A stretch of DNA of 29,397 nucleotides from a virus: positions 1 to 29,397 of IMG/VR virus record IMGVR_UViG_3300008221_001418; one strand, 5' to 3'. Within the stretch, counting starts at the first letter, position 1. Every line of letters starts with the position of its first letter. Below, piece by piece: positions 2,226 to 20,538 of this stretch. The notes under the pieces were generated by a model, which was not told the origin of the DNA, searched no databases, and saw only the letters and a program-made list of their open reading frames with translations. Position numbers and translations under genes: made by a program.

Positions 2226-2302
2226 GGGCGGCTAGCTCAGCTGGTCAGAGCATCTCGTTTACACCGAGAGGGTCGGCGGTTCGAACCCGTCGCCGCCTAC
2301 CA
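2226..2302 (+). tRNA. tRNA-Val (UAC anticodon), prophage integration site
   Basis: The 77-base gene folds fully: acceptor GGGCGGC with GCCGCCT, D stem GCTC/GAGC, anticodon stem TCTCG/CGAGA around loop TTTACAC (anticodon TAC, valine), T arm with TTCGAAC, discriminator A and an encoded CCA at 2300-2302. The integrase gene lies immediately downstream on the opposite strand, the typical layout of tRNA-targeted prophages, so the 3' half of this tRNA probably contains the left attachment core. The gene remains complete. Confidence 0.97.
2255..2302. other. Probable attL core within the tRNA-Val 3' half
   Basis: Inferred from position. The prophage begins just beyond the tRNA, and tyrosine integrases usually recombine in the anticodon or T arm and restore the 3' end. 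The matching attR copy must lie beyond the window, so exact limits cannot be set. Confidence 0.4.
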
Positions 2303-2364: not shown

Positions 2365-3602
2365 TCACCCGAACTTGTCGGCGACGTCGTTCTGATAGTC
2401 CGGCCGATGGTGGCCGTAGTGCTTCAGCAGCGTCGTTGGAGACATGCCGAGGAAGCCGGCGGCGTCCCAGATATCGACGTTGCGCTCCACAACCAGGTCG
2501 CGCAGGTGTGGCGCAGATAGTGCGGTGACACGCCCTTATCGAGCCCGGCGTCGCTGACGCAGCTGGCGAAGCTCTTCTTGACCCGCAACACCGGCTCGCC
2601 GCCGAAGTGGATAACGGCGGTGACGCCCGCCTTCTCGTCGAGACGTCGCCATCTTTCCATATGGGCCTGCAGGCGCTTCGGAAACTTCACGACGGGGCGG
2701 CGCTTGGTTCGCTTGTCGCGCTGTCCTCGAGCGCGACGGTACATGACGCCGGCGTCGACGTTCGCCCAAGGATGCGCCGGGCTCTCTTCCCAAAGCGCGG
2801 CGGCCGTCACCCCCGAGCGAGAGCCGGTGTAGAGAGAGATCAGGATGAACCGACGCAGGTGCATCCGGTTGGTCCGCGCATTGGTCGACGGCCTCACCCA
2901 GCGGCCAGGCGCGCCGGTTCTGGGGTCCGTCGCCTGTTCGTCCCAGCGCCAGCCCATCGAAGCCCAGAGCAGCCGAGCGGCCTCGCGGCGGCTGAGGGCG
3001 TCGCGGGGCGATTCCGATTTCGCAGGCAAGACGACCTTGGGGACGACGCGGAGGTGATGCTCCTCGTGCCACTTCCCGATCGCCGTCGATAAGCACTCCA
3101 ACTCGCGCCTGGCGGTCTGGTCGCTGACGCGAGGGGCGTTGGCGGGATCCTTGGTGTAGGATTTGATCGGGTCCAGGATCCGCGTCTCGACATACGCCTC
3201 GGTGCTTGAGCGCCGAACATCGGACAACACCTTGCCCTCCCACCTGGGGAGCAGGGTGGCGATGAAGCTCGCCTCCTTGGCCGGATTGGATAGGCGTGTG
3301 GCGGGGCCGGCCGCGTATTCGGCCAGGACCTCCGCTACGTAGACCTGATCTGGATCACTCTTGCGGCGTCGTTCGACCTCCCGATCTGTGGGCTGCTCGA
3401 TGGCGCTGGCGTTCTTTTGGAGGATGTAGAGGGCGAGCTGCTCGTCCGCTCCGCCAGGGCCCTCACGGCGATCAGGGCCGCAGCCTGTGCCGATCTCGAC
3501 CGTGCCGTCTCTAATGCAGTAGACGTCGGGGATGGTGACGCCGTCGGGCCGCCGCCTGCCTTTTCGAAGATAGAGGCGCGGGCCTTTCGAGGGACGGGGC
3601 AT
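2365..3602 (-). pseudogene. int: Tyrosine-type phage integrase, frameshifted near the C-terminus
   Basis: This is a tyrosine recombinase that would integrate the phage at tRNA-Val. It starts MPRPSKGPRLYL at 3602. An N-terminal core-binding region is followed by the catalytic domain, with a TGSR arginine motif and the box HYLRHTCATW. The unbroken frame then turns to nonsense and ends at 2424. One base earlier in frame, the DNA reads VERNVDIWDAAGFLGM and then TTLLKHYGHHRPDYQ, stopping at 2365-2367; this tail contains the nucleophilic tyrosine (codon 2416-2418). Restoring a single G near 2488-2494 would give one continuous 411-412 residue protein of normal family length. So the gene is either inactivated by a recent one-base deletion or the base is a sequencing error. 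It is the last gene of the leftward operon and overlaps the excisionase-like gene by 268 bases. Confidence 0.88.
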
Positions 3603-5856: not shown

Positions 5857-6485
5857 TGCGCGTCTAGCTCCGCAAAGGCCGCATCCTTGGCGGCGTTGAG
5901 TTCGGCGGCGGCGGCGTCCGAGCCGCCCTTGTCGGGATGGGCCGCCTGCAGGCGGGTCTTGTGGCGGACGGTGATCGTCGCCTTGGCCTCGGCCGCCGAA
6001 AGTTCGCCAGGGAACAGCGGGTCGAAGCCCAGCACGTCTCGCCAGCTCCGGACGCCGCTCGATGGCGGGGGCAGGGCGCTGAAGGCCTGAAGCGTCTCGG
6101 CCGCGCTGGCGACGCCGTAGCGAGTGATCGCCCGCGTGGACTCCAGGTGCGCCGCCAGGGCGCCGATGTTCTGCGCGGCCTCAGTGTAGGTGTCGCAGGC
6201 CAGGGCGAACGGCTGGTTCTTCAGCGTGAAATAGAGGCAGACGCCGGGGTCGGCCGGAGCGGCGCGATCGGCACGCGGACGTCCGTCCAGTCGCAGCTCG
6301 AGGTTTGAGGACAGGACCGGCAGCCAGCCGCCTATGCGTTCGAGCTCGTTCTCGACCCGCGCCATGGCCTCGGCCGGCGACAGCAGTTTGCCGGATTTCT
6401 TGAACTGTCCCTGCCGGCGCTGGGCTGCCGGAGTCCTGGGGCGGTGCACTGGCCAGGCCAGCGGGAAGCGGTCGGGCGTCTTCAT
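5853..6485 (-). CDS. Phage protein with C-terminal J-domain
   Basis: This 210-residue protein starts MKTPDRFPLAWP at 6485. The start is supported by the TGATG overlap with the GapR-like gene; a longer open frame upstream is only that gene out of frame. The middle (residues about 45-140) is a conserved-looking domain with LYFTLKNQPFALACDTYT. The last 65 residues form a J-domain, with WRDVLGFDP, a helix rich in Arg/Lys, and the diagnostic HPDKGGSD. J-domains stimulate the ATPase of Hsp70 (DnaK), so the phage may recruit host chaperones for replication or repressor handling, as lambda does (inference). There are no zinc-finger or Gly/Phe regions, so it is not a full DnaJ. Confidence 0.85.
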   Translation of the reverse strand: MKTPDRFPLAWPVHRPRTPAAQRRQGQFKKSGKLLSPAEAMARVENELERIGGWLPVLSSNLELRLDGRPRADRAAPADPGVCLYFTLKNQPFALACDTYTEAAQNIGALAAHLESTRAITRYGVASAAETLQAFSALPPPSSGVRSWRDVLGFDPLFPGELSAAEAKATITVRHKTRLQAAHPDKGGSDAAAAELNAAKDAAFAELDAQ

Positions 6486-6760
6486 CACAGCTCTCCCAGG
6501 GCGGAGAGGTAGAGATCGAGGATCGCGTCCTCTTCCTGGCGCTTCGCCTTGTCCTGCTTCCGGATCCGGATGACCTTGCGCAGGATCTTGATATCGTAGC
6601 CCTCGCCCTTGGCTTCGGCGAAGACCTCCTTCATGTCGGCCATGACGGCTTGCTTGTCCTCCTCGAGGCGCTCGAGACGCTCGATGATGGTGCGCAGGCG
6701 GCCCTGGGCCGTCGCGGTGAGGACGTCGGGATCGTTGGGGAGGTGGTGTGCATCGGTCAC
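6485..6760 (-). CDS. gapR: GapR-family (DUF2312) nucleoid-associated protein, phage copy
   Basis: This 91-residue protein matches the GapR family along its length: an N-terminal coiled-coil (LRTIIERLERLEEDKQAVMA, then DMKEVFAEAKGEGYD) and a basic helix (ILRKVIRIRKQDKAKRQEEDA), ending ILDLYLSALGEL. In Caulobacter the chromosomal GapR is an essential protein that encloses overtwisted DNA and stimulates topoisomerases (established knowledge). The gene starts at a GTG that overlaps the previous stop (GTGA). A phage copy could act on phage replication or interfere with host GapR, since the family forms oligomers through this coiled-coil. Confidence 0.92.
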   Translation of the reverse strand: MTDAHHLPNDPDVLTATAQGRLRTIIERLERLEEDKQAVMADMKEVFAEAKGEGYDIKILRKVIRIRKQDKAKRQEEDAILDLYLSALGEL

Positions 6761-9917: not shown

Positions 9918-10364
9918 ATGAACGCACGACAGCACACCCTGCTGGCGCGCCTGCTTATCGACGCCTGCGGCGGCGTTGATGCATGCTGCAAGCCGATAAC
10001 GCGGGTCGAACGATCCGCCCTCTATGCGTACCGTGACTATGAGAAGCCGGCCTTCATGCCGGCCGACGTCATCGAGGCGCTGGAAAAGAAGTGCGGGAAT
10101 CCGGTCTACTCCGGCTTCCTTTTTGAGATGGCGAAAGAGTCAAGCCGGGCCGACGCTCTCGCCTGCGTGGGCGCCTCGGCGGACCGGGTGCATATCTCAG
10201 CCTTCCGTTTGTGGGAGGCGGCCAAGGACGCCCTTGCGGACGGCGATCTAAGCGAGATCGAGAAGCGCGAACTGGCCGCCGGCCTTCAGAAGCTCGAGGA
10301 CGCGGCGCGCTCCATGCGATCGTCCCTGGATGCCGAGCCCCTGGTCGAAGGTGAGCCGACATGA
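9918..10364 (+). CDS. CII-like phage regulatory protein
   Basis: This 148-residue protein starts MNARQHTLLARLLIDACGGV at 9918, with AAGGA upstream. A longer frame upstream (ATG at 9861) is possible but does not look conserved. Residues about 10-70 resemble the phage CII/CP76 regulatory domain (CKPITRVERSALYAYRDYEK, then PADVIEALEKKCGNPVYSGF). In P2-like and related phages such proteins act in early transcription control and the lysis-lysogeny choice. The C-terminal part is a long helix (LSEIEKRELAAGLQKLEDAA). Its stop overlaps the next start (ATGA), indicating one transcript with the replication gene. Confidence 0.75.
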   Translation: MNARQHTLLARLLIDACGGVDACCKPITRVERSALYAYRDYEKPAFMPADVIEALEKKCGNPVYSGFLFEMAKESSRADALACVGASADRVHISAFRLWEAAKDALADGDLSEIEKRELAAGLQKLEDAARSMRSSLDAEPLVEGEPT

Positions 10365-11029
10365 CGGCCGTCCCGATCGACCACAGCCACCGGCGTCGAC
10401 GGCCCGAGCCCGAGTACCGCCGCACCCTGTCCCCCGTTCGCCGCAATAGCCAGGCCGCCGGCGGCGAGAACTGGCGCCCGATCAGCTGGTCCGAGGGCCG
10501 GAAGATCCTTCTGGCCCTGCGGATCCACGCCGAAAAGCAGCGGCGAAAGGGCGAGCGCACGGGCTGCGCGCCCAGGAACAAGGCCGACGCCGGCGGGATC
10601 AGCTTCGGCGCCATCCGCCTGGCCGAGGTTCTGGTCGGCATCGCCACCAAACGAAACGGCCGGTTGGAGCCTTCGGTGAGGTGGCTGGCCAAGGCCCTGA
10701 ACGTCCCCCTGAAAACCATCCACGCCTGGAAGGCTCAGCTCAAACGCCACGGCTTCCTGGACTGGCGCCGCCGCTGGGTCTTCACCGGCCGGGAGGGCGC
10801 GCGCGGCGACCAGGTCCAGCAGACGTCGAACGCCTATTGGGTGAAGGCCCCCCTGGAGGCCCTGGAGGCGGCCGCCAAGGTGCTTGCGCCCCGCAAGGTC
10901 GAAGAGGACGACGAGGCCCGCTGGGCGTCCATGCCAGAGGAAATGCAGGCCAGCCTCCGCGCCATGAAGGCCTCGGCCGCGCGGCGAAGCGAGCGCGGAT
11001 CGCAGGCTGGTCGATTAAGTCGGACATGA
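10361..11029 (+). CDS. Probable phage replication/DNA-binding protein
   Basis: This 222-residue protein is basic at the N-terminus. A central winged-helix region follows (VLVGIATKRNGRLEPSVRWL, AKALNVPLKTIHAWKAQLKR, then HGFLDWRRRWVFTG) ending TSNAYWVKAPLEA. This layout, an HTH with a wing followed by a 'YW' motif, is common in plasmid and phage replication-initiation accessory proteins. The tail is helical and charged. A palindrome-rich non-coding region follows directly and could contain its target. It is not a P2 gpA-type nickase: no HUH motif is seen. Confidence 0.6.
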   Translation: MTAVPIDHSHRRRRPEPEYRRTLSPVRRNSQAAGGENWRPISWSEGRKILLALRIHAEKQRRKGERTGCAPRNKADAGGISFGAIRLAEVLVGIATKRNGRLEPSVRWLAKALNVPLKTIHAWKAQLKRHGFLDWRRRWVFTGREGARGDQVQQTSNAYWVKAPLEALEAAAKVLAPRKVEEDDEARWASMPEEMQASLRAMKASAARRSERGSQAGRLSRT

Positions 11030-11886: not shown

Positions 11887-12324
11887 TCAGGCGGCTGCGC
11901 GGTCGCCACCAATCGAAAGGGCGGGCCTGATCCCCAACGCGCGCAGAGCCTCGAGCGCCGCGTCGACCGTGGCCTTGCCCTGCAGGATCCGGCGGACGTT
12001 CTTCTCATCCTTGCCCAGGCGTTCCGCCAAGGCGCGGCCGGACACATGCTGGCGGTCCATTGCCATGACCAGCATCAGGCGCGCGGCGACGGCAGGTGAA
12101 AGCGGGACCAGGACTTCGCCATCCTCGGCCGGGCTGGGCGAGGGGACGTCACGGGTGTCGAGCATCAAGCCCTCGACGGCGACGTCCAGGGCGTCGGCCG
12201 CCAGCTGATACGATTCCTCGACCGTCGCACCGCCGGTGATGGCCTCCGGGATATCGCGGAAGGTGACGAGGAACTCCCCAGGGGCTTCCTCGACAATGCG
12301 GGCGGGATAGGTGAAGGCGGTCAT
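11887..12324 (-). CDS. hicB: HicB antitoxin
   Basis: This 145-residue protein has the partial RNase-H-like HicB domain at residues 1-60 (FTYPARIVEEAPGEFLVTFR, DIPEAITGGATVEESYQLAA) and a C-terminal HTH (MDRQHVSGRALAERLGKDEK, NVRRILQGKATVDAALEALR). HicB binds and neutralises HicA and represses its own operon through the HTH. It is encoded 60 bases after hicA, the classic toxin-first HicAB order. The pair can stabilise the prophage or act against phages (family knowledge). Confidence 0.92.
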   Translation of the reverse strand: MTAFTYPARIVEEAPGEFLVTFRDIPEAITGGATVEESYQLAADALDVAVEGLMLDTRDVPSPSPAEDGEVLVPLSPAVAARLMLVMAMDRQHVSGRALAERLGKDEKNVRRILQGKATVDAALEALRALGIRPALSIGGDRAAA

Positions 12325-12384: not shown

Positions 12385-12591
12385 TCAGAAGGCGTCCTTT
12401 GGTAGTCCGAGCTGTTTGAGCAGCCCCTGTTTGACGACGTTGCTGATCTCGCCGTGCTTTACCGTGGTGAAGGCGTCTCCGACGTAGACCCGGCCGTGGC
12501 CGCCTTTGCCGTGCGCCGCGTCGAACCGGTAGGGAAGCCCTGCTTTCTTGCAGTAGGCTCGGAGGTCACGAAGGAAGGTGTCGCGGTTCAT
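12385..12591 (-). CDS. hicA: HicA toxin (mRNA interferase)
   Basis: This 68-residue protein is of normal HicA length. It starts MNRDTFLRDLRAYCKKAGLP and contains the dsRBD-like core with KGGHGRVYVGDAFTTVKHGE; the histidine in GGHG (residue 32) is the likely catalytic one. It ends with the helix NVVKQGLLKQLGL. The start at 12591 was chosen over one 60 bases upstream because the longer form would translate through the promoter and operator. HicA cleaves mRNA to stop growth when HicB is lost. Confidence 0.92.
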   Translation of the reverse strand: MNRDTFLRDLRAYCKKAGLPYRFDAAHGKGGHGRVYVGDAFTTVKHGEISNVVKQGLLKQLGLPKDAF

Positions 12592-12597
12592 GTGTTT

Positions 12598-12626
12598 CTT
12601 ATGCGGACATTTTGGTCCGCAGTCAA
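12598..12626 (-). promoter_or_regulatory. hicAB promoter with HicB operator
   Basis: On the minus strand TTGACT (12621-12626) and CATAAG (12598-12603) are 17 bp apart. The spacer holds the dyad TGCGGAC-ATTTTG-GTCCGCA (12602-12621), a likely HicB operator; a further half-site GTCCGCA lies at 12644-12650. The predicted start of transcription falls at or next to the hicA ATG (12591), with no ribosome binding site, so a leaderless mRNA is likely. Confidence 0.65.
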
Positions 12627-12664
12627 GCGGCGCGGTCAAAATAGTCCGCACTTGGCTACCAATC

Positions 12665-12736
12665 AGCTATCAACTAGCTATTAGCTATCGACTAGCCGTC
12701 GGCTATCCACTAGCTGTTAGCTATCCACTAGCTGAA
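12665..12736 (+). repeat. Four tandem 18-bp repeats, candidate centromere (parS)
   Basis: Units begin at 12665, 12683, 12701 and 12719 and read AGCTATCAACTAGCTATT, AGCTATCGACTAGCCGTC, GGCTATCCACTAGCTGTT and AGCTATCCACTAGCTGAA. Each holds an internal dyad AGCTA-N5-TAGCT, perfect in units 1 and 4. They lie directly upstream of the parA-like gene, where type Ib partition systems keep their centromere and operator. Confidence 0.85.
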
Positions 12737-12747
12737 AGGTATTTGCC

Positions 12748-13428
12748 GTGCCGGTCATCACCATGTCGTCGCCCAAGGGCGGCGCCGGAAAGACAACGTC
12801 GCTCGCCATTCTCGCGACCCAGCTGGCGCGCAACGCTCCAGTCGCGATCATCGATGCTGACAAGAACCAGCCCATCGTGACCTGGTCGAAGGCGCCGGGT
12901 TTCCCCGCGAATATCGAGGTGATCTCCGACGTTACGGACGCCAACTTCTATGACCGCCTGGACGACGTCGCGCGCCGGACACCGTTCGTCCTCATCGATC
13001 CCGAGGGCACCGCGAACGTGATCTCCTCACTGGCGATCAGCGCGGCCGACCTGGTCATCATCCCCCTGCAGGCGTCACAGCTTGACGCGGACCAAGCTCA
13101 ACGCGCTCTCGTCCAGGTCACGAACCAGGAGCGTGCCGCGCGCCGGCGGATCGCGACGCGGATCCTTTTCACGCGCACCTCGACCGCCATCCAGACCCGC
13201 ACCCTCCGCCACCTGAAAGTCGAGCTCGCTGACGCCGGCGTCGCCACCTTCGACACCCAACTGGTCGAGAGGGAGGCGTTCAAGGCCATGTTCAGTTTCG
13301 GCGGCACGCTTGAGCTACTGGATAGCCGTCAGGTATCCAGTCCAGACAAGGCCGTCGCCAACGCCCGCGCCTTTGCGGCCGAGGTTGTCCAGGTGCTGAA
13401 GGATCTCGAGCATGAACGAGCGGCGTAA
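12748..13428 (+). CDS. parA: ParA-family partition ATPase (type Ib / VirC1-like)
   Basis: This 226-residue protein is the short ParA type without an N-terminal HTH. It opens MPVITMSSPKGGAGKTTSLA with the deviant Walker A (signature lysine 10, nucleotide lysine 15). The following VAIIDADKNQPIVTWSKAPG and FVLIDPEG, then ADLVIIPLQ, are the usual ParA landmarks. The C-terminus (FGGTLELLDSRQVSSPDKAV) matches what I recall of VirC1-like ParA proteins. These ATPases pattern on nucleoid DNA and segregate plasmids. The GTG start has AAAGG eight bases upstream, and the 18-bp repeats end 12 bases before it. The next gene overlaps by 17 bases. Confidence 0.9.
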   Translation: MPVITMSSPKGGAGKTTSLAILATQLARNAPVAIIDADKNQPIVTWSKAPGFPANIEVISDVTDANFYDRLDDVARRTPFVLIDPEGTANVISSLAISAADLVIIPLQASQLDADQAQRALVQVTNQERAARRRIATRILFTRTSTAIQTRTLRHLKVELADAGVATFDTQLVEREAFKAMFSFGGTLELLDSRQVSSPDKAVANARAFAAEVVQVLKDLEHERAA

Positions 13429-13732
13429 AACCTTCGGCCCGGACGCCGGATTGACCGATGACGTGGGGGCCGGCGACTTCAAGCCGCGCCCGATCACCCG
13501 GCCCGATCCCGAGGCCGCGCGCCGCGTCGCGGAGGAGGGAGGCTACACCTCCGGCGCCTCCATCCGCGCCCCCAGCGATACCCAGCGCCGCTACCGCACC
13601 GGCCGCACGGCCCAGCTCAACTTGAAGGTCACGCCGGAAAACAAGGCTCGCTTCGCCGAGATGGCGGACGCCGCCGGCGTCAGTTTGAACGTCCTGTTTG
13701 AGCGCGCCCTGAAGTCACTCGAAGAGTCTTAG
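13412..13732 (+). CDS. Ribbon-helix-helix partner of ParA (ParB/VirC2-like)
   Basis: A 106-residue protein: a disordered, charged N-terminal 65 residues and a C-terminal ribbon-helix-helix (RTAQLNLKVTPENKARFAEM, then ADAAGVSLNVLFERALKSLE). In type Ib partition systems the small second protein is an RHH dimer that binds the centromere through this fold and stimulates ParA with its basic flexible N-terminus; length and order fit well. The likely target is the 18-bp repeats upstream of parA. Confidence 0.8.
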   Translation: MNERRKTFGPDAGLTDDVGAGDFKPRPITRPDPEAARRVAEEGGYTSGASIRAPSDTQRRYRTGRTAQLNLKVTPENKARFAEMADAAGVSLNVLFERALKSLEES

Positions 13733-13833: not shown

Positions 13834-14250
13834 ATGGCTGCCGAACCCGCGCTAACCAAACTGGAGTTCGAGGTGCTGTCCAGCACCGACAACGCCTGTG
13901 TGGCTATCGATGCGGATCTGCTGAAGGAGCTCAATGAGATCGATGAGAAGAAACTCGCTAGATTGGTTCGCATCATGGAGTTGTGGTGCGGCGGTCAGCA
14001 ACTGACGGCTGAGCAGTACAACGGCAATGAAGGGCGCGCGAAGCGCGGCGACCTCAACGTGATGCTGCAAGCGTTCAAGACACACAAAGTCCGATTGTTC
14101 GGAATCGTGATGAGGATTGACCGAAAGCGGACGTTCCTCATCGTCGATCTCGACCCTGCAAAGAAGCAGAACAAAGCGGACCCGAAAATTCTCAAGCGGG
14201 CATACGGCCGCGCGCTTGATTTGACTGAGAAAGCCGGAGAACTGAAATGA
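13834..14250 (+). CDS. Toxin candidate, HigB/RelE-like, of a three-gene TAC module
   Basis: A 138-residue protein. Its C-terminal half (AFKTHKVRLFGIVMRIDRKR, TFLIVDLDPAKKQNKADPKI, then LKRAYGRALDL) has the shape of HigB/RelE-type mRNA interferases: an Arg-rich strand pair, then a Lys-rich loop KKQNK and a helix beginning PKILKRA. The N-terminal half is less typical (VAIDADLLKELNEIDEKKLA). The call leans on context: an XRE antitoxin follows with an ATGA overlap, then a SecB-like gene. GC is clearly lower than in the structural genes, a sign of separate origin. Toxicity is inferred. Confidence 0.65.
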   Translation: MAAEPALTKLEFEVLSSTDNACVAIDADLLKELNEIDEKKLARLVRIMELWCGGQQLTAEQYNGNEGRAKRGDLNVMLQAFKTHKVRLFGIVMRIDRKRTFLIVDLDPAKKQNKADPKILKRAYGRALDLTEKAGELK

Positions 14251-14696
14251 ATACCGCCATTAATGCCCTGAAGAATTCGAGCGTCTACGCCGAAGAGGCG
14301 CTGGTGGTCGATCTGCAGTCGTTGTTGCATACCGTTATGGTGGAGAAAGGCTTCACCAGATCGCAGCTGGCTGCTGCAATGGGCGTGAGTAAGGCTCGTG
14401 TTACGCAACTTTTCTCGGACGATTGCAGTAACTTCACTGTCCGAATGTTGGCTCGAGCCCTCTTCGCCTTGGGCGAACAGTTGGAAGTGTCCTGTCCCAC
14501 GATGAAGAAAGCCCAAGCGCGGATTGAGGCCTTCGAAAGTCTTGAGCAGCTTGCATGGCCTGCCCATGGGGATGGGCAGTGGCAAATGCATGCCAACGAA
14601 AATGAGCGGCGGGAAATCGCCTCGAGCACGGGGCGGACGAGTGGGATGATCGCGCGTGCGATGAGCAGGTTCTCTGACGAACGGCTTGCCGCATGA
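14247..14696 (+). CDS. XRE-family antitoxin (HigA-like) with C-terminal extension
   Basis: A 149-residue protein whose central XRE domain reads LHTVMVEKGFTRSQLAAAMG, VSKARVTQLFSDDCSNFTVR, then MLARALFALGEQLEV. A 55-residue extension follows, including WPAHGDGQWQMHANENERRE. In characterised toxin-antitoxin-chaperone systems such as M. tuberculosis HigBA-SecB, an antitoxin C-terminal 'chaperone addiction' segment rich in aromatics binds the SecB-like chaperone (established knowledge); the Trp-containing tail here is a candidate. The gene overlaps both neighbours by four bases. Confidence 0.8.
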   Translation: MNTAINALKNSSVYAEEALVVDLQSLLHTVMVEKGFTRSQLAAAMGVSKARVTQLFSDDCSNFTVRMLARALFALGEQLEVSCPTMKKAQARIEAFESLEQLAWPAHGDGQWQMHANENERREIASSTGRTSGMIARAMSRFSDERLAA

Positions 14697-15397: not shown

Positions 15398-15976
15398 CTA
15401 CGGGGCGGGGTAGACCTTCTCGACGGTCAGTGCGCCGGCCGGGGAGGGGATGAGCAGCTCGGCTTCGGGCAACCGAAGGTCAAGCCAGTCCATCGCCTGG
15501 TCGCGGCGCAGCAGGACGATCTGCCGATCATGGTAGGGGGCGATGTCCGGCCCTGGTTCGGTCGTCAGCATGGCCCAGGCGCCGTTCTTGACCAGGCCCG
15601 CGACCCAGAACCACGGCTCGTTCTGGAGCGCGAACCGCCACTTGGTTTTGCGCTTGTGGCCAGGCTCGGCCGCCGTGAACTCATAGAAGGCGTCGGCGGG
15701 GATCAGGCAGCGGTCGGAGCCGGCGAAGCTGCGGCCGTCCGAGCGGAAGTTGAACACGGGCTTTCCGCCCGGTCCTTTCCAGGCCCAGGTCATCTGACGA
15801 AGCAACGGGCCGGCCTCGGTGCGCGTGACGATAGGCGCGACGTCGCCGATGCGGACGTCGTCGCGTGGCTCCAGGTTCGGAACCGCCTCGCCGTCGAAGC
15901 GCATCGGGACGTCCGTCTCGCTGAAGGCCTCCGCGATCTGGTTCGCTGACAGATGGGAGCTGTAGTTGTTGCACAT
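15398..15976 (-). CDS. SOS-response-associated peptidase (SRAP, YedK/HMCES family)
   Basis: This 192-residue protein starts MCNNYSSHL, so Cys2 becomes the N-terminal nucleophile after methionine removal. Other active-site residues are in place: Asn76 (VFNFRSDG), Glu99 (DAFYEF) and His149 (APYHDRQ). SRAP proteins form a covalent thiazolidine link with abasic sites in single-stranded DNA and shield them from error-prone processing (established knowledge). The gene lies 43 bases after umuC on the same strand with no separate SOS box seen, so it is probably the third gene of the SOS operon. Confidence 0.95.
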   Translation of the reverse strand: MCNNYSSHLSANQIAEAFSETDVPMRFDGEAVPNLEPRDDVRIGDVAPIVTRTEAGPLLRQMTWAWKGPGGKPVFNFRSDGRSFAGSDRCLIPADAFYEFTAAEPGHKRKTKWRFALQNEPWFWVAGLVKNGAWAMLTTEPGPDIAPYHDRQIVLLRRDQAMDWLDLRLPEAELLIPSPAGALTVEKVYPAP

Positions 15977-16019
15977 GGTTCGCCAGCGTCACGAGAGCCG
16001 ACTGGTTCCGCAAGCCTGA

Positions 16020-17282
16020 TCAGGCGCGCGCGATCGGGGTCTCCGAGAGCCTGGTCGTATAGGCCGGGCTGCGCATGTCGGCCTTGGTCGCCCACCGCTT
16101 GGCCAGCCCGGCCCGCGCGGGCACGAGGGCGCCGCGTCCGTGCCGGCGGTTGACATGGTCGAGCGCGGCCATCAGCTGGTCGCGGCGCGAATCCGCAGCG
16201 GTGAGCAGATCGCCCGTCGTCGCGCCCGGCCGCACCAGGTCATCGAGCATGACGCCCGCCTTGGCGTATCGGAACCCCGGAGCCCACAGCCGGCGCACGA
16301 CGGCCGACGCCGCCGCGATCATCGCGGTCGTGTCACAGCTGGGCGACCACAACGCCGCCCGGCCGCTGACCGAGCGCGCCGGCCCCGCCGCATGGGCGCC
16401 GGTGTGGAAGAAGATCGTCATGTCGGCCGAGGCCAGCCCATGCAGACGCAGCTTCTCTCCCGCCCTGGACACATAGGTCGCGACCGCCTCCAGCATATCG
16501 TCCAGGTCGGTGATCGGCCGCCCGAACATGCGGGTCACTGCGATTCCCTTCCGCACCGGCGGCGTCATCTCCAGATCCTGGCAAAGGACGCCGCCCAGCT
16601 CGAGGACCAGCCGCTCGCCCGTAACGGTCAGCAGGGCGCGTGCGGCGCGCGGATCCATAGCGCGCAGATCCGCCGCCGTCGTCACGCCCACGGCCCTCAG
16701 CTTGGCGGCCGACGCCCGGCCCACGCCCCACACGTCCGCTACCTCGACGCTCTGCAACAGGGCGTCGCGCCGGGCCGGGTCAGTCAGGTCGCAGACGCCG
16801 TCGAGCTCCGGCCGCTTCTTCGCCAGATGGTTCGCCACCTTGGCCAGCGTTCGCGTAGGGCCCAGCCCCACACAGGTCGGAATTCCGGTCCAACGACGGA
16901 CCGTCGCCCGCATCTCCCGCGCCTGGCCGGCCGCGTCCGCGTCGCCGGTGAAGTCCAGGAAGCTCTCGTCGATCGAGTAAATCTCGACGTCCCGCGCAAA
17001 GCGCCGATAGACGTCGTTCACCCGCCGGCTCATGTCGCCGTACAGGACGTAGTTGGATGACCGCGCCACGACGCCGGCGGCCGTCGCCTGGTCGCGGATC
17101 TTGAACCAGGGGTCGCCTATCTGGATCCCGAGCGCCTTGGCCTCGGGCGTGCGGGCGATGGCGCAGCCGTCGTTGTTCGAGAGGACGATGACCGGCCGCC
17201 CCTCGAGCGCGGGATCGAACACCCGCTCGCAGGAGCAGTAGAAGCTGTTCCCGTCCGACAGGGCGAAGATCCGGCCCGTCAT
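16020..17282 (-). CDS. umuC: Y-family DNA polymerase V catalytic subunit
   Basis: A 420-residue protein of UmuC length (E. coli 422). It starts MTGRIFALSDGNSFYCSCER at 17282 by ATGA overlap with umuD. Metal ligands are visible as Asp10 (ALSDGNSFY) and Asp105-Glu106 (YSIDESFLDF). The helix-hairpin-helix region (VADVWGVGRASAAKLRAVG) and the little-finger domain follow. With UmuD' it forms translesion polymerase V, which copies damaged DNA with low fidelity. Caulobacter hosts mainly use ImuAB-DnaE2 for this task, so a phage umuDC adds a second mutagenic pathway to the lysogen (inference). Confidence 0.95.
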   Translation of the reverse strand: MTGRIFALSDGNSFYCSCERVFDPALEGRPVIVLSNNDGCAIARTPEAKALGIQIGDPWFKIRDQATAAGVVARSSNYVLYGDMSRRVNDVYRRFARDVEIYSIDESFLDFTGDADAAGQAREMRATVRRWTGIPTCVGLGPTRTLAKVANHLAKKRPELDGVCDLTDPARRDALLQSVEVADVWGVGRASAAKLRAVGVTTAADLRAMDPRAARALLTVTGERLVLELGGVLCQDLEMTPPVRKGIAVTRMFGRPITDLDDMLEAVATYVSRAGEKLRLHGLASADMTIFFHTGAHAAGPARSVSGRAALWSPSCDTTAMIAAASAVVRRLWAPGFRYAKAGVMLDDLVRPGATTGDLLTAADSRRDQLMAALDHVNRRHGRGALVPARAGLAKRWATKADMRSPAYTTRLSETPIARA

Positions 17283-17722
17283 CGCGGCGCCGGCCGGTGC
17301 GGCGTCAGCGACCAGGTGATGACGCCCCAGATCGAGGCCTCCGACGCTTCGTCCAGGACCAGCGGCGACATGGCCGGATTGTCGAAGTCCAGGGCCAGCC
17401 GGCCGCCTCTCAGGCGGATGACGCGCTTGGCGCTGGGCTGGCCATCGATGACGGCGACCACGGCGTCGTCCGCGCGCGGCGCCAGGGATCGATCTACCAC
17501 GACATAGTCGCCGTCGTTGATGCCCCGGCCGATCATGCTGCGGCCGGTCACGCGCCAGACGAAGGTGGCGGTCGGGTTGGTCACGATCAGCTGGGCCGGG
17601 TCCAAGGCCTCTTCCAGATAGTCGTCCGCCGGCGAGGGAAACCCCGCACATAGGCTGGCCCCCATGAAGGGCAGGGGCTGCCCCTCGCCCAGCCTGACTG
17701 AAACCCCGATCCTCGTCGCCAT
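17279..17722 (-). CDS. umuD: UmuD, self-cleaving polymerase V accessory subunit
   Basis: A 147-residue protein starting MATRIGVSVRLGEGQPLPFM. The 41 codons open upstream would run through the SOS box and are excluded. The RecA-stimulated cleavage site is Ala26-Gly27 (CAGFPSPADDY), with catalytic Ser62 (GRSMIGRGI) and Lys99 (PSAKRVIR), nearly the E. coli spacing (24/25, 60, 97). There is no DNA-binding domain, which separates it from LexA and phage repressors. It is the first gene of the umuD-umuC-SRAP operon, 77 bp from the LexA box. Confidence 0.95.
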   Translation of the reverse strand: MATRIGVSVRLGEGQPLPFMGASLCAGFPSPADDYLEEALDPAQLIVTNPTATFVWRVTGRSMIGRGINDGDYVVVDRSLAPRADDAVVAVIDGQPSAKRVIRLRGGRLALDFDNPAMSPLVLDEASEASIWGVITWSLTPHRPAPR

Positions 17723-17799
17723 GCCTACGGTTCGCTCTCGATCGCCAACCGACCCTCTGGGCGCCTTACGCGGCTGGTGATGTGAGGAAAAGGAAAAAT

Positions 17800-17814
17800 G
17801 TTCGCGGAATGTTC
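17800..17814. promoter_or_regulatory. LexA-binding SOS box shared by umuD and the divergent gene
   Basis: GTTC-GCGGAAT-GTTC is an exact match to the alphaproteobacterial LexA motif GTTC-N7-GTTC. It lies between umuD (start 17722) and the rightward gene (start 17834), 19 bases before the latter ATG. Confidence 0.9.
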
Positions 17815-17833
17815 CTAATTTGTGGAAGGTGAT

Positions 17834-18658
17834 ATGAAGCTGCACGGTGTCGTGTGGCTACGACTGGGAATAGTCAGTTCAGAGCGATTCGAAGTCGCTG
17901 GAGGGGAAGCGTTGGGGAATAAGAACGGGCGCTGCGTCGTGTGTGGGAACAGCCCGACGGTGAAGTCGCACCTCTTTCCGCGCGCAATGATGCTGGATAT
18001 GCGGACAGATGATCGGCCGCTGCTCGAGGCTAGTCGACACCGGACAGGCTATGTCGAGAGGCAAAACGGCATTTGGGATGATCGTTTCCTCTGTAAGACA
18101 CATGAAGACGCAGCGGGGGGCGGCGACGACTACGCGGTCAGGCTAAGCCGCCGGATGATAGAGAAGAGTTGGCGACACCCGGATGGCGACGCGTTTCAGA
18201 TCGATAATCCGCAGCCAGAGCTCCTTCAGCGCTTTGTCTACGGCACGGTTTGGCGTCATTTCGCTGCACCGATTTCAGCTCCCTCCAAGCTGAGGCTAGG
18301 GCCGTATCAAGATCGGATAGAACGCGCCCTCTTCAATGATGGGCTATTTGACCTGCCCATCGTTGCCGCGATCACGAACGTCACTGGACATGCCGGACGC
18401 CTCGTGCCGATGGCTCTCGCACCCTACCGAACGAAGCTCAAGGACGCATGGGTCTGGCACTTCGTCGTCGGCTATTTCGACGTCATGCTGAAGACTGATG
18501 CACGTCCTTGGCCTCCCGAATGGCGCCCATACTTGGCTGACCGCGATCCGCTGACTCTCTTCCAGGCCGATAGGGTAGATCTTGCGACGGTGCCCTTCTT
18601 GAGGGAACTGACAGACAGAGTGCGAGCGTCGCCATATCGTGGAAAGCAAAAGGGCTGA
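17834..18658 (+). CDS. Cys/His-rich protein, possibly HNH-like, SOS-linked
   Basis: A 274-residue protein of unknown function. Near the N-terminus CVVC (Cys34, Cys37) is followed by SHLFPRAM (His46) and later CKTH (Cys87, His90), the layout of a treble-clef zinc knuckle as in HNH-type nucleases, whose first motif often reads C-x2-C...SHxxP. The rest is helical with many Trp residues and no membrane helix. ATG at 17834 is preceded by GGAAGG; an upstream GTG at 17822 is less likely. The LexA box 19 bases upstream suggests induction on DNA damage. GC is lower than in the surrounding genes, suggesting a cargo gene. A defence or damage-response nuclease role is possible but unproven. Confidence 0.65.
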   Translation: MKLHGVVWLRLGIVSSERFEVAGGEALGNKNGRCVVCGNSPTVKSHLFPRAMMLDMRTDDRPLLEASRHRTGYVERQNGIWDDRFLCKTHEDAAGGGDDYAVRLSRRMIEKSWRHPDGDAFQIDNPQPELLQRFVYGTVWRHFAAPISAPSKLRLGPYQDRIERALFNDGLFDLPIVAAITNVTGHAGRLVPMALAPYRTKLKDAWVWHFVVGYFDVMLKTDARPWPPEWRPYLADRDPLTLFQADRVDLATVPFLRELTDRVRASPYRGKQKG

Positions 18659-18698: not shown

Positions 18699-19505
18699 TC
18701 AGTTGCCGCCGGTGATGATCACCTCCGACGCTGCCTGAGATCCACGGCCGGCGAGGCCGTAGTGCGTGCCGACGGTCTCGACCTGGAAACGCGCGAAGAT
18801 CTCCCGCACCTGCGGCCGGTCGTTGAGGGAGAGGATGAAACGCCCCTTCAGCCCCGCCAACTGCTCAGCCATGGCGTCGAACTCCTGGCGGCCGAACATG
18901 CCGTCGCCATAGTCGTCCTCGCAGCCGTAGTAGGGCGGATCGAGATAGAACAGCACGTCCGGCCGGTCATAGCGGGCGATGAAATCCGACCAGCCGAGCT
19001 GTTCGATCGTCACGCCCTCGAGGCGCTTGGCGGCAGCGAGCAGGTCGTCGCCCACGGCGCTGGCCTGGAAACGGGCCGGACGGCCCAGGCTGACTCCGAA
19101 GTGTCGCCCGTTCACCTTCCCACCAAACGCGGTCTTCTGCAGATAGACGAACCGAGCGGCCCGCTGCAGATCCGTCAACGCCGTTGGATCCTCGCGCACG
19201 GTCCGGTCGAACTCTGCTCGGGAGTGAAGCTGAAGCGCTACCAGGTCAACAAGGGCGCCGGGGTGGGCGCGCATGCACCGGAACAGGTTGGCGACGTCAC
19301 CCGACCAATCGTTGATCAACTCGCACTTCGGCCGGGACTGCCGGCGGAAGAAGACGCCCCCCATGCCGACGAAGGCCTCGGCGTATGTGGTGTGAGGCGT
19401 GGCCTCGATCAGGGCGCACAGACGGCGCGCCAGGTTGCGCTTGCCGCCGACGTAGGGCGCGATCGGACGCACCGGCGAGACTGGGGAAAGGGTCATTGCG
19501 TTCAT
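18699..19505 (-). CDS. dam: DNA adenine methyltransferase (D12 class, Dam-like)
   Basis: A 268-residue protein starting MNAMTLSPVSPVRPIAPYVG; a second ATG three codons on is an alternative. The SAM-binding motif I is in IAPYVGGKRNL and YAEAFVGMGG, and the catalytic motif is DPPY (residues 189-192). Length and motif order fit the D12 class that methylates N6-adenine, usually in GATC. P2-like phages often carry such a gene. GATC methylation would be foreign to a Caulobacterales host, whose CcrM uses GANTC, so protection from restriction or late-gene timing are possible roles (inference). Confidence 0.92.
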   Translation of the reverse strand: MNAMTLSPVSPVRPIAPYVGGKRNLARRLCALIEATPHTTYAEAFVGMGGVFFRRQSRPKCELINDWSGDVANLFRCMRAHPGALVDLVALQLHSRAEFDRTVREDPTALTDLQRAARFVYLQKTAFGGKVNGRHFGVSLGRPARFQASAVGDDLLAAAKRLEGVTIEQLGWSDFIARYDRPDVLFYLDPPYYGCEDDYGDGMFGRQEFDAMAEQLAGLKGRFILSLNDRPQVREIFARFQVETVGTHYGLAGRGSQAASEVIITGGN

Positions 19506-19618
19506 GGTCGACTCAACAGCATTTGCGCCGCGCCGGTCAGGCCGGTGGCGGGGCGAAAGGGGCGTGCACCCCTGGACGTGCTGAGTTACGGCTCGGCGGC
19601 TCGGGCGCGGCAAACGCT

Positions 19619-19713: not shown

Positions 19714-20538
19714 ATGAAGCGCGCAAAAGAAATTGCTATTTCGATCGCCGTCGTGTGGGCAGCGCTCTGGATTTTGTTCGGCATAGCTAGGTGGGGTTGT
19801 TTGCCGACATCTGAGCAATGCGTCCTTAGCTTTTGGCGCGGATTTGAACGGCTGGTACTCTTCCTTTGGGTGACCGACCCTGAAGCCCTTATCTCAGCTT
19901 TGCTAGCTGTGGGGGCAGCGAGTGTGGGTGCCATCTTTCTCAACCGCCAAATTCGACAAGCAAACCGGCACGAGAGCCGCCGCCTGAAGCGGAAGAACCG
20001 TGCTGCTAAAGCCGTGATGCCCCATACCCTCAGTGCTGTCTGCGACTACGCTACGGCGAGCGCGAGAGCCTATTTGGCTTTGATTGCAGGGTCTGATGCG
20101 CGTGGTGGGATTAGGTTGAACCCAGAAAATTTCGGGCGACCGCCTACGCTGGCCTCAAGCCATATTGCGGCCATGCAGGCGATGATCGAGGCATCGCCGT
20201 CTGAGGTCGCTCAGCCAATCATCCATCTCTTGGCAGATCTTCAAGTGCACGAAACGCGTTGGCGAGGCGTAGCGAACGCCGCAGCGGGCCACGATCCGAC
20301 ACTCTACCTGGCCAGCAACTTTGAGGGGGAAATATGCGAAGCGGCAGACATATATGCCCAGGCCACGGATATGTTCGGAATGGTGCGCCCCTCCGATGAT
20401 GCTGAGCCGGCACAAGAGGGGAGGACCACCCTCGTAACAGCGCTGCTCCTAATGGGCGTGAGAGGCATCGACTCCATTGATCGCTTGGCGGCGGCGCGGG
20501 AAGTTAGGCGCCCGGCATCTCTCGTGCCTGGAATTTAA
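19714..20538 (+). CDS. Two-helix membrane protein, likely accessory (moron) gene
   Basis: A 274-residue protein starting MKRAKEIAISIAVVWAALWI at 19714. There are two membrane segments (about residues 5-25 and 48-75: LFLWVTDPEALISALLAVGA, ASVGAIFLNRQI), then a very basic helix (QANRHESRRLKRKNRAAKAV) and a soluble helical domain of about 170 residues. No family is recognised. It opposes the structural genes, ends inside the 3' end of the portal gene (35-base overlap) and has lower GC, all typical of a cargo gene expressed in the lysogen, for example for superinfection exclusion or defence (inference). Confidence 0.7.
   Translation: MKRAKEIAISIAVVWAALWILFGIARWGCLPTSEQCVLSFWRGFERLVLFLWVTDPEALISALLAVGAASVGAIFLNRQIRQANRHESRRLKRKNRAAKAVMPHTLSAVCDYATASARAYLALIAGSDARGGIRLNPENFGRPPTLASSHIAAMQAMIEASPSEVAQPIIHLLADLQVHETRWRGVANAAAGHDPTLYLASNFEGEICEAADIYAQATDMFGMVRPSDDAEPAQEGRTTLVTALLLMGVRGIDSIDRLAAAREVRRPASLVPGI

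Follow-up and report, generated by a model that had tools for sequence, protein, structure and literature searches.

A plasmid-type partition cassette coexisting with integration genes in a family of P2-like prophages

In a 29,397-bp fragment taken from an IMG/VR viral record, which is the whole stretch of DNA analysed here and is called the window below, we describe a repeat array followed by a parA gene and a small overlapping gene, and partition is very likely the function of this cassette to judge from its sequence. The interpretation that we consider reasonably probable is that the three parts form a complete partition cassette (array, ParA and ribbon-helix-helix (RHH) type binder), acquired from an alphaproteobacterial plasmid, which would segregate the circular, non-integrated form of the phage genome. 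Similar partition kits are known in plasmids, in some phages and in some mobile islands, and rarely beside a working integrase. At the left end of the window are the host genes, namely a Lon-like protease ORF, an HU-family gene and tRNA-Val, and rightward from these come the integrase, then the early region, the accessory genes and the P2-type head genes. The features needed for the argument are as follows.

2226..2302, plus strand: tRNA-Val, with the attachment core (attL side) in the 3' half of the gene
2424..3602, minus strand: tyrosine integrase, whose reading frame is disrupted close to the C terminus in the window copy
10361..11029, plus strand: ORF222, last in the early operon, encoding a winged-helix protein that is a candidate to initiate replication of the circular form
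11887..12324, minus strand: HicB-like antitoxin gene, divergent from par
12385..12591, minus strand: small ORF of 68 aa in the HicA position, so described from position and appearance only
12655..12741, no strand assigned: putative parS/operator of alternating AGCTA and TAGCT half-sites
12748..13428, plus strand: parA, encoding a 226-aa ParF/VirC1-type ATPase, GTG start
13412..13732, plus strand: parB-like gene, encoding a 106-aa putative RHH centromere-binding protein, with a 17-bp overlap with parA

The array consists of four in-phase 18-bp units at 12665-12736, with outlying half-sites at 12655 and 12737. The initial annotation had described four such repeats, each with an AGCTA-N5-TAGCT dyad, and this description holds, except that only units 1 and 4 have the exact dyad, units 2 and 3 each having a version with one mismatch. 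On a finer view there are 9-10 AGCTAT-type half-sites, the first at 12655, with a spacing that alternates between 11 and 7 bp. TRF reported the array at 12665-12734/36 with a period of 18, 3.9 copies and a score of 98, the highest of any tandem repeat in the window, and a chance origin of the repeats was ruled out, since the maximum score among 200 dinucleotide-preserving shuffles of the window was 71 and none of the 200 reached 98. The position upstream of parA and the 18-bp period are kept in all six near relatives, a set that includes the window itself along with B. intermedia, E21, ASV9, V13 and V14 (ParA 84-99% identical to the window's), and the array is also conserved in the more distant G026, where ParA is 58% identical to the window's. 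Upstream of parA, the core TAGCTATC is over-represented in G026 and the six near relatives, as it is in the majority of the plasmid relatives tested. A scan of the window for consensus promoters and terminators found nothing, the consensus being uninformative for the window's host. Inside parA, at 13319..13339, a dyad TGGATA ... TATCCA (TGGATAGC ... GTATCCA) resembles the array half-sites and is suggestive of a possible secondary site; it is intact in five of the six near relatives (ASV9 is one base off) and nearly so in G026. As a second centromere, this dyad was rejected: run tests gave about 0.03 for the six sequences, which were a post hoc choice, and became non-significant with G026 added.

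The short ParA with a deviant Walker A motif that had been noted earlier is borne out, as the 226-aa product has PKGGAGKT at residues 9-16 and is without an N-terminal HTH. Its first Pfam match is VirC1 (2e-18), with AAA_31 matched as well, while PHROGs places it in PHROG 164, 'ParA-like partition protein' (8e-26), and NCBIfam gives ParA_partition at 5e-29, which is under that model's cut-off. When a profile of 12 relatives was compared to the PDB, ParF of TP228 was the top match (9e-29). The small gene was also correctly said to follow parA: it is the 106-aa ORF overlapping parA, and the order of the two genes is identical across all relatives. Family searches with its product gave zero matches, and its homologues on plasmids, which lie beside ParA, are annotated as 'stability/partitioning determinant' or as hypothetical protein. 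The conserved motif of the protein is RRYRTGRxxQLNLKVT. Its profile found ParG in the PDB at a weak E of 0.54; the AlphaFold2 model (mean pLDDT 69) has a C-terminal helix-helix unit, with the strand not modelled, and Foldseek on this model returned Arc, ParG and CopG with weak scores, E above 3. The sequence pattern and the predicted helix-helix model fit an RHH fold, which is likely for this protein. For parA pairwise dN/dS is 0.02-0.23, and for the small gene, on which the constraint is weaker, it is 0.12-0.29; as these values are well below 1, they indicate that both genes are maintained by purifying selection.

The seven phage sequences cluster together in the ParA tree (support 88/82), and this clade stands beside plasmids of Asticcacaulis, Cereibacter and Shinella (85/82), with moderate support for the deeper forks; the ParA of the P2-like Burkholderia phage KS14 is distant and on a long branch. 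The nesting of the phage clade among plasmid ParAs supports a plasmid ancestry of the cassette, and the tree fits a single acquisition, unconnected with KS14, in which the donor was an alphaproteobacterial plasmid. In plasmids this gene pair usually lies near a replication initiator gene, and in the Asticcacaulis loci, with ORFs read by eye, an initiator-like gene is directly downstream. In most plasmids tested the number of RGCTA/TAGCY half-sites in the 250 bp preceding parA is far above expectation, e.g. 13 in Sphingopyxis, where 0.5 would be expected, and 15 in Cereibacter, where the expected number is 0.4; in the same 250 bp no enrichment was found in Niveispirillum, in the Aurantimonas phage AmM-1 or in KS14. 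The plasmids in which the TAGCTATC core recurs ahead of parA include those of alpha-, beta- and gammaproteobacteria. Since the core is shared with homologous plasmids, it belongs to the partition family, beyond the window phage alone, and TAGCTATC is probably the family-wide centromere/operator motif. The cassettes of Asticcacaulis, of Cereibacter sphaeroides p.C and of Sphingopyxis pRW412b have the same gene pair and order, a ParA about 45-55% identical and the same core. They differ from the phage cassettes in that rep genes adjoin them and the spacing is mostly 11 bp (an 11-bp half-site period was seen in several plasmids, against 18 in the phages), whereas in the phages 11 and 7 bp alternate to give 18 and no rep gene was recognised. 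No record in the plasmid collection had a ParA at least 60% identical to the window's. The proposal of the initial annotation that a plasmid-type 'Ib' cassette had been captured by a P2-like phage is thus supported, relatives of the cassette adjoining plasmid rep genes and sharing the repeat core. The type Ib system ParF/ParG/parH of TP228 (PMC7308502) is alike in its short HTH-less ParA, its small downstream RHH-type protein and its upstream array, likely both operator and centromere; it differs in repeat sequence, the small protein of the window is only weakly ParG-like, and the window cassette is carried by an integrating phage.

The P2-like nature claimed for the element was confirmed through Pfam and PHROG matches of its head genes, namely a P2-type capsid (PF05125, 8.5e-120) and a portal, terminase and scaffold matched by PHROGs, and further P2-type tail genes are present in relatives. 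The gpA rolling-circle replication initiator (PF05840) is missing in V13, V14 and the window, of which V14 and the window are fragments. The likeness to P2 is confined to the virion genes, and the early region is unlike P2. Several other genes of the element are recorded here for their own sake. A phage-encoded GapR-like DNA-binding protein (6485-6760; PF10073, 5e-32) occurs in Brevundimonas P2-like prophages with and without par; a SRAP protein with UmuC- and UmuD-like genes (15398-17845) makes up an SOS-type accessory set found in some relatives only; and a D12-class adenine DNA methyltransferase (18699-19613) adjoins the head genes, with many related prophages having one. Between G026 and the window, the early and late blocks are inverted relative to each other.

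On the other side of the array, the HicB-like gene (Pfam HicB_lk_antitox 6e-6, just under the cut-off) is present in most par-bearing relatives, namely E21, B. intermedia (INT), V13 and V14, and the 68-aa ORF beside it gave no HicA profile or family match. Two imperfect repeats at 12603-12650 (GCGGACATTTTGGTCCGCA / GCGGTCAAAATAGTCCGCA) may be the operator of these two genes. Directly 3' of par, at 13834-14696, is a two-gene unit with an HTH_37 protein, possibly a toxin-antitoxin pair. For ORF222 the AlphaFold2 model has winged-helix order, PHROG 270 'replication initiation protein' was matched weakly in three of seven homologues, and the search for iterons nearby gave two-copy matches only; a replicating circle driven by this candidate initiator is plausible.

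At least seven P2-like prophages or contigs, which come from Brevundimonas or from related viruses, have the cassette, the six near relatives being joined by G026, which also has P2-type genes; in ASV9 the P2 capsid sits on another contig of the same genome. All seven encode a tyrosine integrase, of at least four different kinds. The prophage of B. intermedia VKM B-1499 lies in tRNA-Val, bounded by 55-bp repeats about 39 kb apart, the E21 prophage lies at tRNA-Leu, bounded by 39-bp repeats, and the G026 element is located within a 2.6-Mb contig. In the V14 contig the late gene D is joined to the integrase across the att core, the same core as at the tRNA-Val site, and this attP junction is the only sign of a free circle among the par-bearing elements. 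Past the end of the par-bearing prophage, the ASV9 contig has another integrase and a large primase-like ORF, which suggests a second element alongside. The integrase frame is indeed broken in the window, as had been read earlier, and a tie between the cassette and this frameshift had been suggested; this tie does not stand, as B. intermedia and V14 carry closely related par genes together with intact 412-aa integrase homologues, other par-bearing relatives have different integrases, and the conservation of par is no different in elements with an intact integrase. The integrase being broken only in the window copy, par did not replace integration, and the two coexist. Among 131 Brevundimonas genomes the P2 capsid family was found in nine, and four of these nine have the cassette. 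The five capsid-bearing prophages in which no recognisable copy was found still have GapR, Cro/CI-like genes, a 168-aa gene, ORF222 and an integrase, and the cassette is therefore optional. In the 25 IMG/VR records with a related ParA that were checked, the P2 capsid family was found in V13 only, V14 being P2-like by other genes, and seven more IMG/VR records with a related ParA encode tyrosine integrases.

In ParF/ParG systems, the array becomes coated with RHH protein, which represses the operon, and nucleoid-bound ParA-ATP moves the resulting complexes (PMC7308502). By analogy with these and related systems, the likely mechanism is that putative RHH dimers coat the AGCTAT half-sites, such that a par promoter inside or beside the array would be repressed and a partition complex would be formed, which ATP-bound ParA on the nucleoid would then capture and move, so that neither daughter cell would be left without a copy of the circular phage genome. 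Since att sites and a working integrase are retained in the relatives, the stage at which the cassette acts is most likely a transient circle, either after infection and before integration or after spontaneous excision. The cassette may also cooperate with the adjacent HicB-like toxin-antitoxin pair, since integrative elements such as R391 are stabilised by partition and toxin-antitoxin systems. Against partition of a circle stand the facts that no plasmid-type replication initiator was identified in the element, ORF222 being a candidate only and present in the phages without par as well, that five related Brevundimonas prophages lack par, that the scores for the RHH fold are weak, and that the plasmid collection has no ParA at or above 60% identity.

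Precedents for parts of this arrangement are found in KS14, R391, PAPI-1 and the cluster A mycobacteriophages. KS14 is P2-like, encodes ParA and was shown to have a plasmid prophage (PMC3091744); it is alike in its P2-type virion genes and in having ParA with a small downstream protein, and differs in its distantly related ParA, its RepB initiator, its lack of a tyrosine integrase and its maintenance as a plasmid. The statement made earlier that P2-like phages do not need segregation was therefore too strong, given that KS14 is kept as a plasmid and that the window element is P2-like in its virion genes only. AmM-1 is likewise an alphaproteobacterial myovirus; its ParA, about 47% identical along most of the protein, is followed by a small gene, but in the stretch viewed it has no annotated integrase, and it has unrelated 40-bp repeats upstream and a different early region. 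The 40-bp tandem repeat, upstream of parA at about 19800-19990 of that stretch, is possibly its own centromere. In R391 (srpMRC) and PAPI-1 (soj), partition genes stabilise elements that are normally integrated, and R391 also has a toxin-antitoxin system (PMC4489591); SXT/R391 and PAPI-1 are conjugative elements and not phages, and srpMRC is type II (actin-like). In the temperate cluster A mycobacteriophages, parABS takes the place of the integration cassette (PMC7157519), so that partition is found there instead of integration, whereas both are present here.

A different possibility, which we regard as unlikely though worth keeping in view, is that these are dual-lifestyle phage-plasmids, in line with the plasmid stage considered in the initial annotation: some hosts, or a fraction of the population, would stably inherit the prophage as a low-copy plasmid, with integration as the alternative. 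The combination of a full par cassette and a probable toxin-antitoxin system next to it is typical of plasmids, the partition genes are homologous to plasmid ones, KS14 illustrates that a phage with P2-type virions can have a plasmid prophage, and both the joined attP of V14 and the possible initiator role of ORF222 would agree with it. However, the B. intermedia and E21 prophages are fully att-bounded in chromosomal contigs, G026 lies in its 2.6-Mb contig, the integrases of the relatives are intact, no plasmid replicon was recognised, and any lytic cycle would also yield an attP junction. It is improbable that the main role of the RHH protein and the array is autorepression, or interference with resident plasmids sharing the TAGCTATC core, rather than segregation. 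The core is common to plasmids of Asticcacaulis, Sphingopyxis, Cereibacter and others, and partition proteins are able to cause incompatibility, but the phage spacing (11/7) is unlike that of most plasmids (11), and the stronger constraint on parA would be unnecessary for repression alone. That the cassette is a relic or passenger with no present function is very improbable: it is optional within the prophage family, and the window copy comes from a viral-record fragment with a broken integrase, yet both genes are under purifying selection and the array with its 18-bp period is conserved in all near relatives. A VirC1/VirC2-like role in conjugative DNA processing, named in the initial annotation as a refuting alternative and favoured by the first Pfam match of the ATPase, was rejected as barely credible, since the NCBIfam VirC1 equivalog scored 68 bits against a cut-off of 313, no relaxase or transfer genes were seen in the element or near the cassette, the plasmid relatives adjoin rep genes, and an iterated array lies upstream of parA.

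Returning to partition of the circular phage genome, we have here one phage family in which partition is retained while the integrase changes, and the retention of a borrowed plasmid kit suggests that the free circle of the phage must survive cell division. A more speculative extension, to which we give little weight, would be a regular two-state lysogeny in this integrating P2-like family, chromosomal on the one hand and a partitioned circle on the other, with the centromere carrying the circle through division and possibly competing with resident plasmids that have the TAGCTATC core. This core may also serve as a sequence marker for the centromeres of a large and little-studied plasmid partition family. 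As sister prophages with and without par exist in nature, the need for segregation of the circular form of integrating phages is directly testable.
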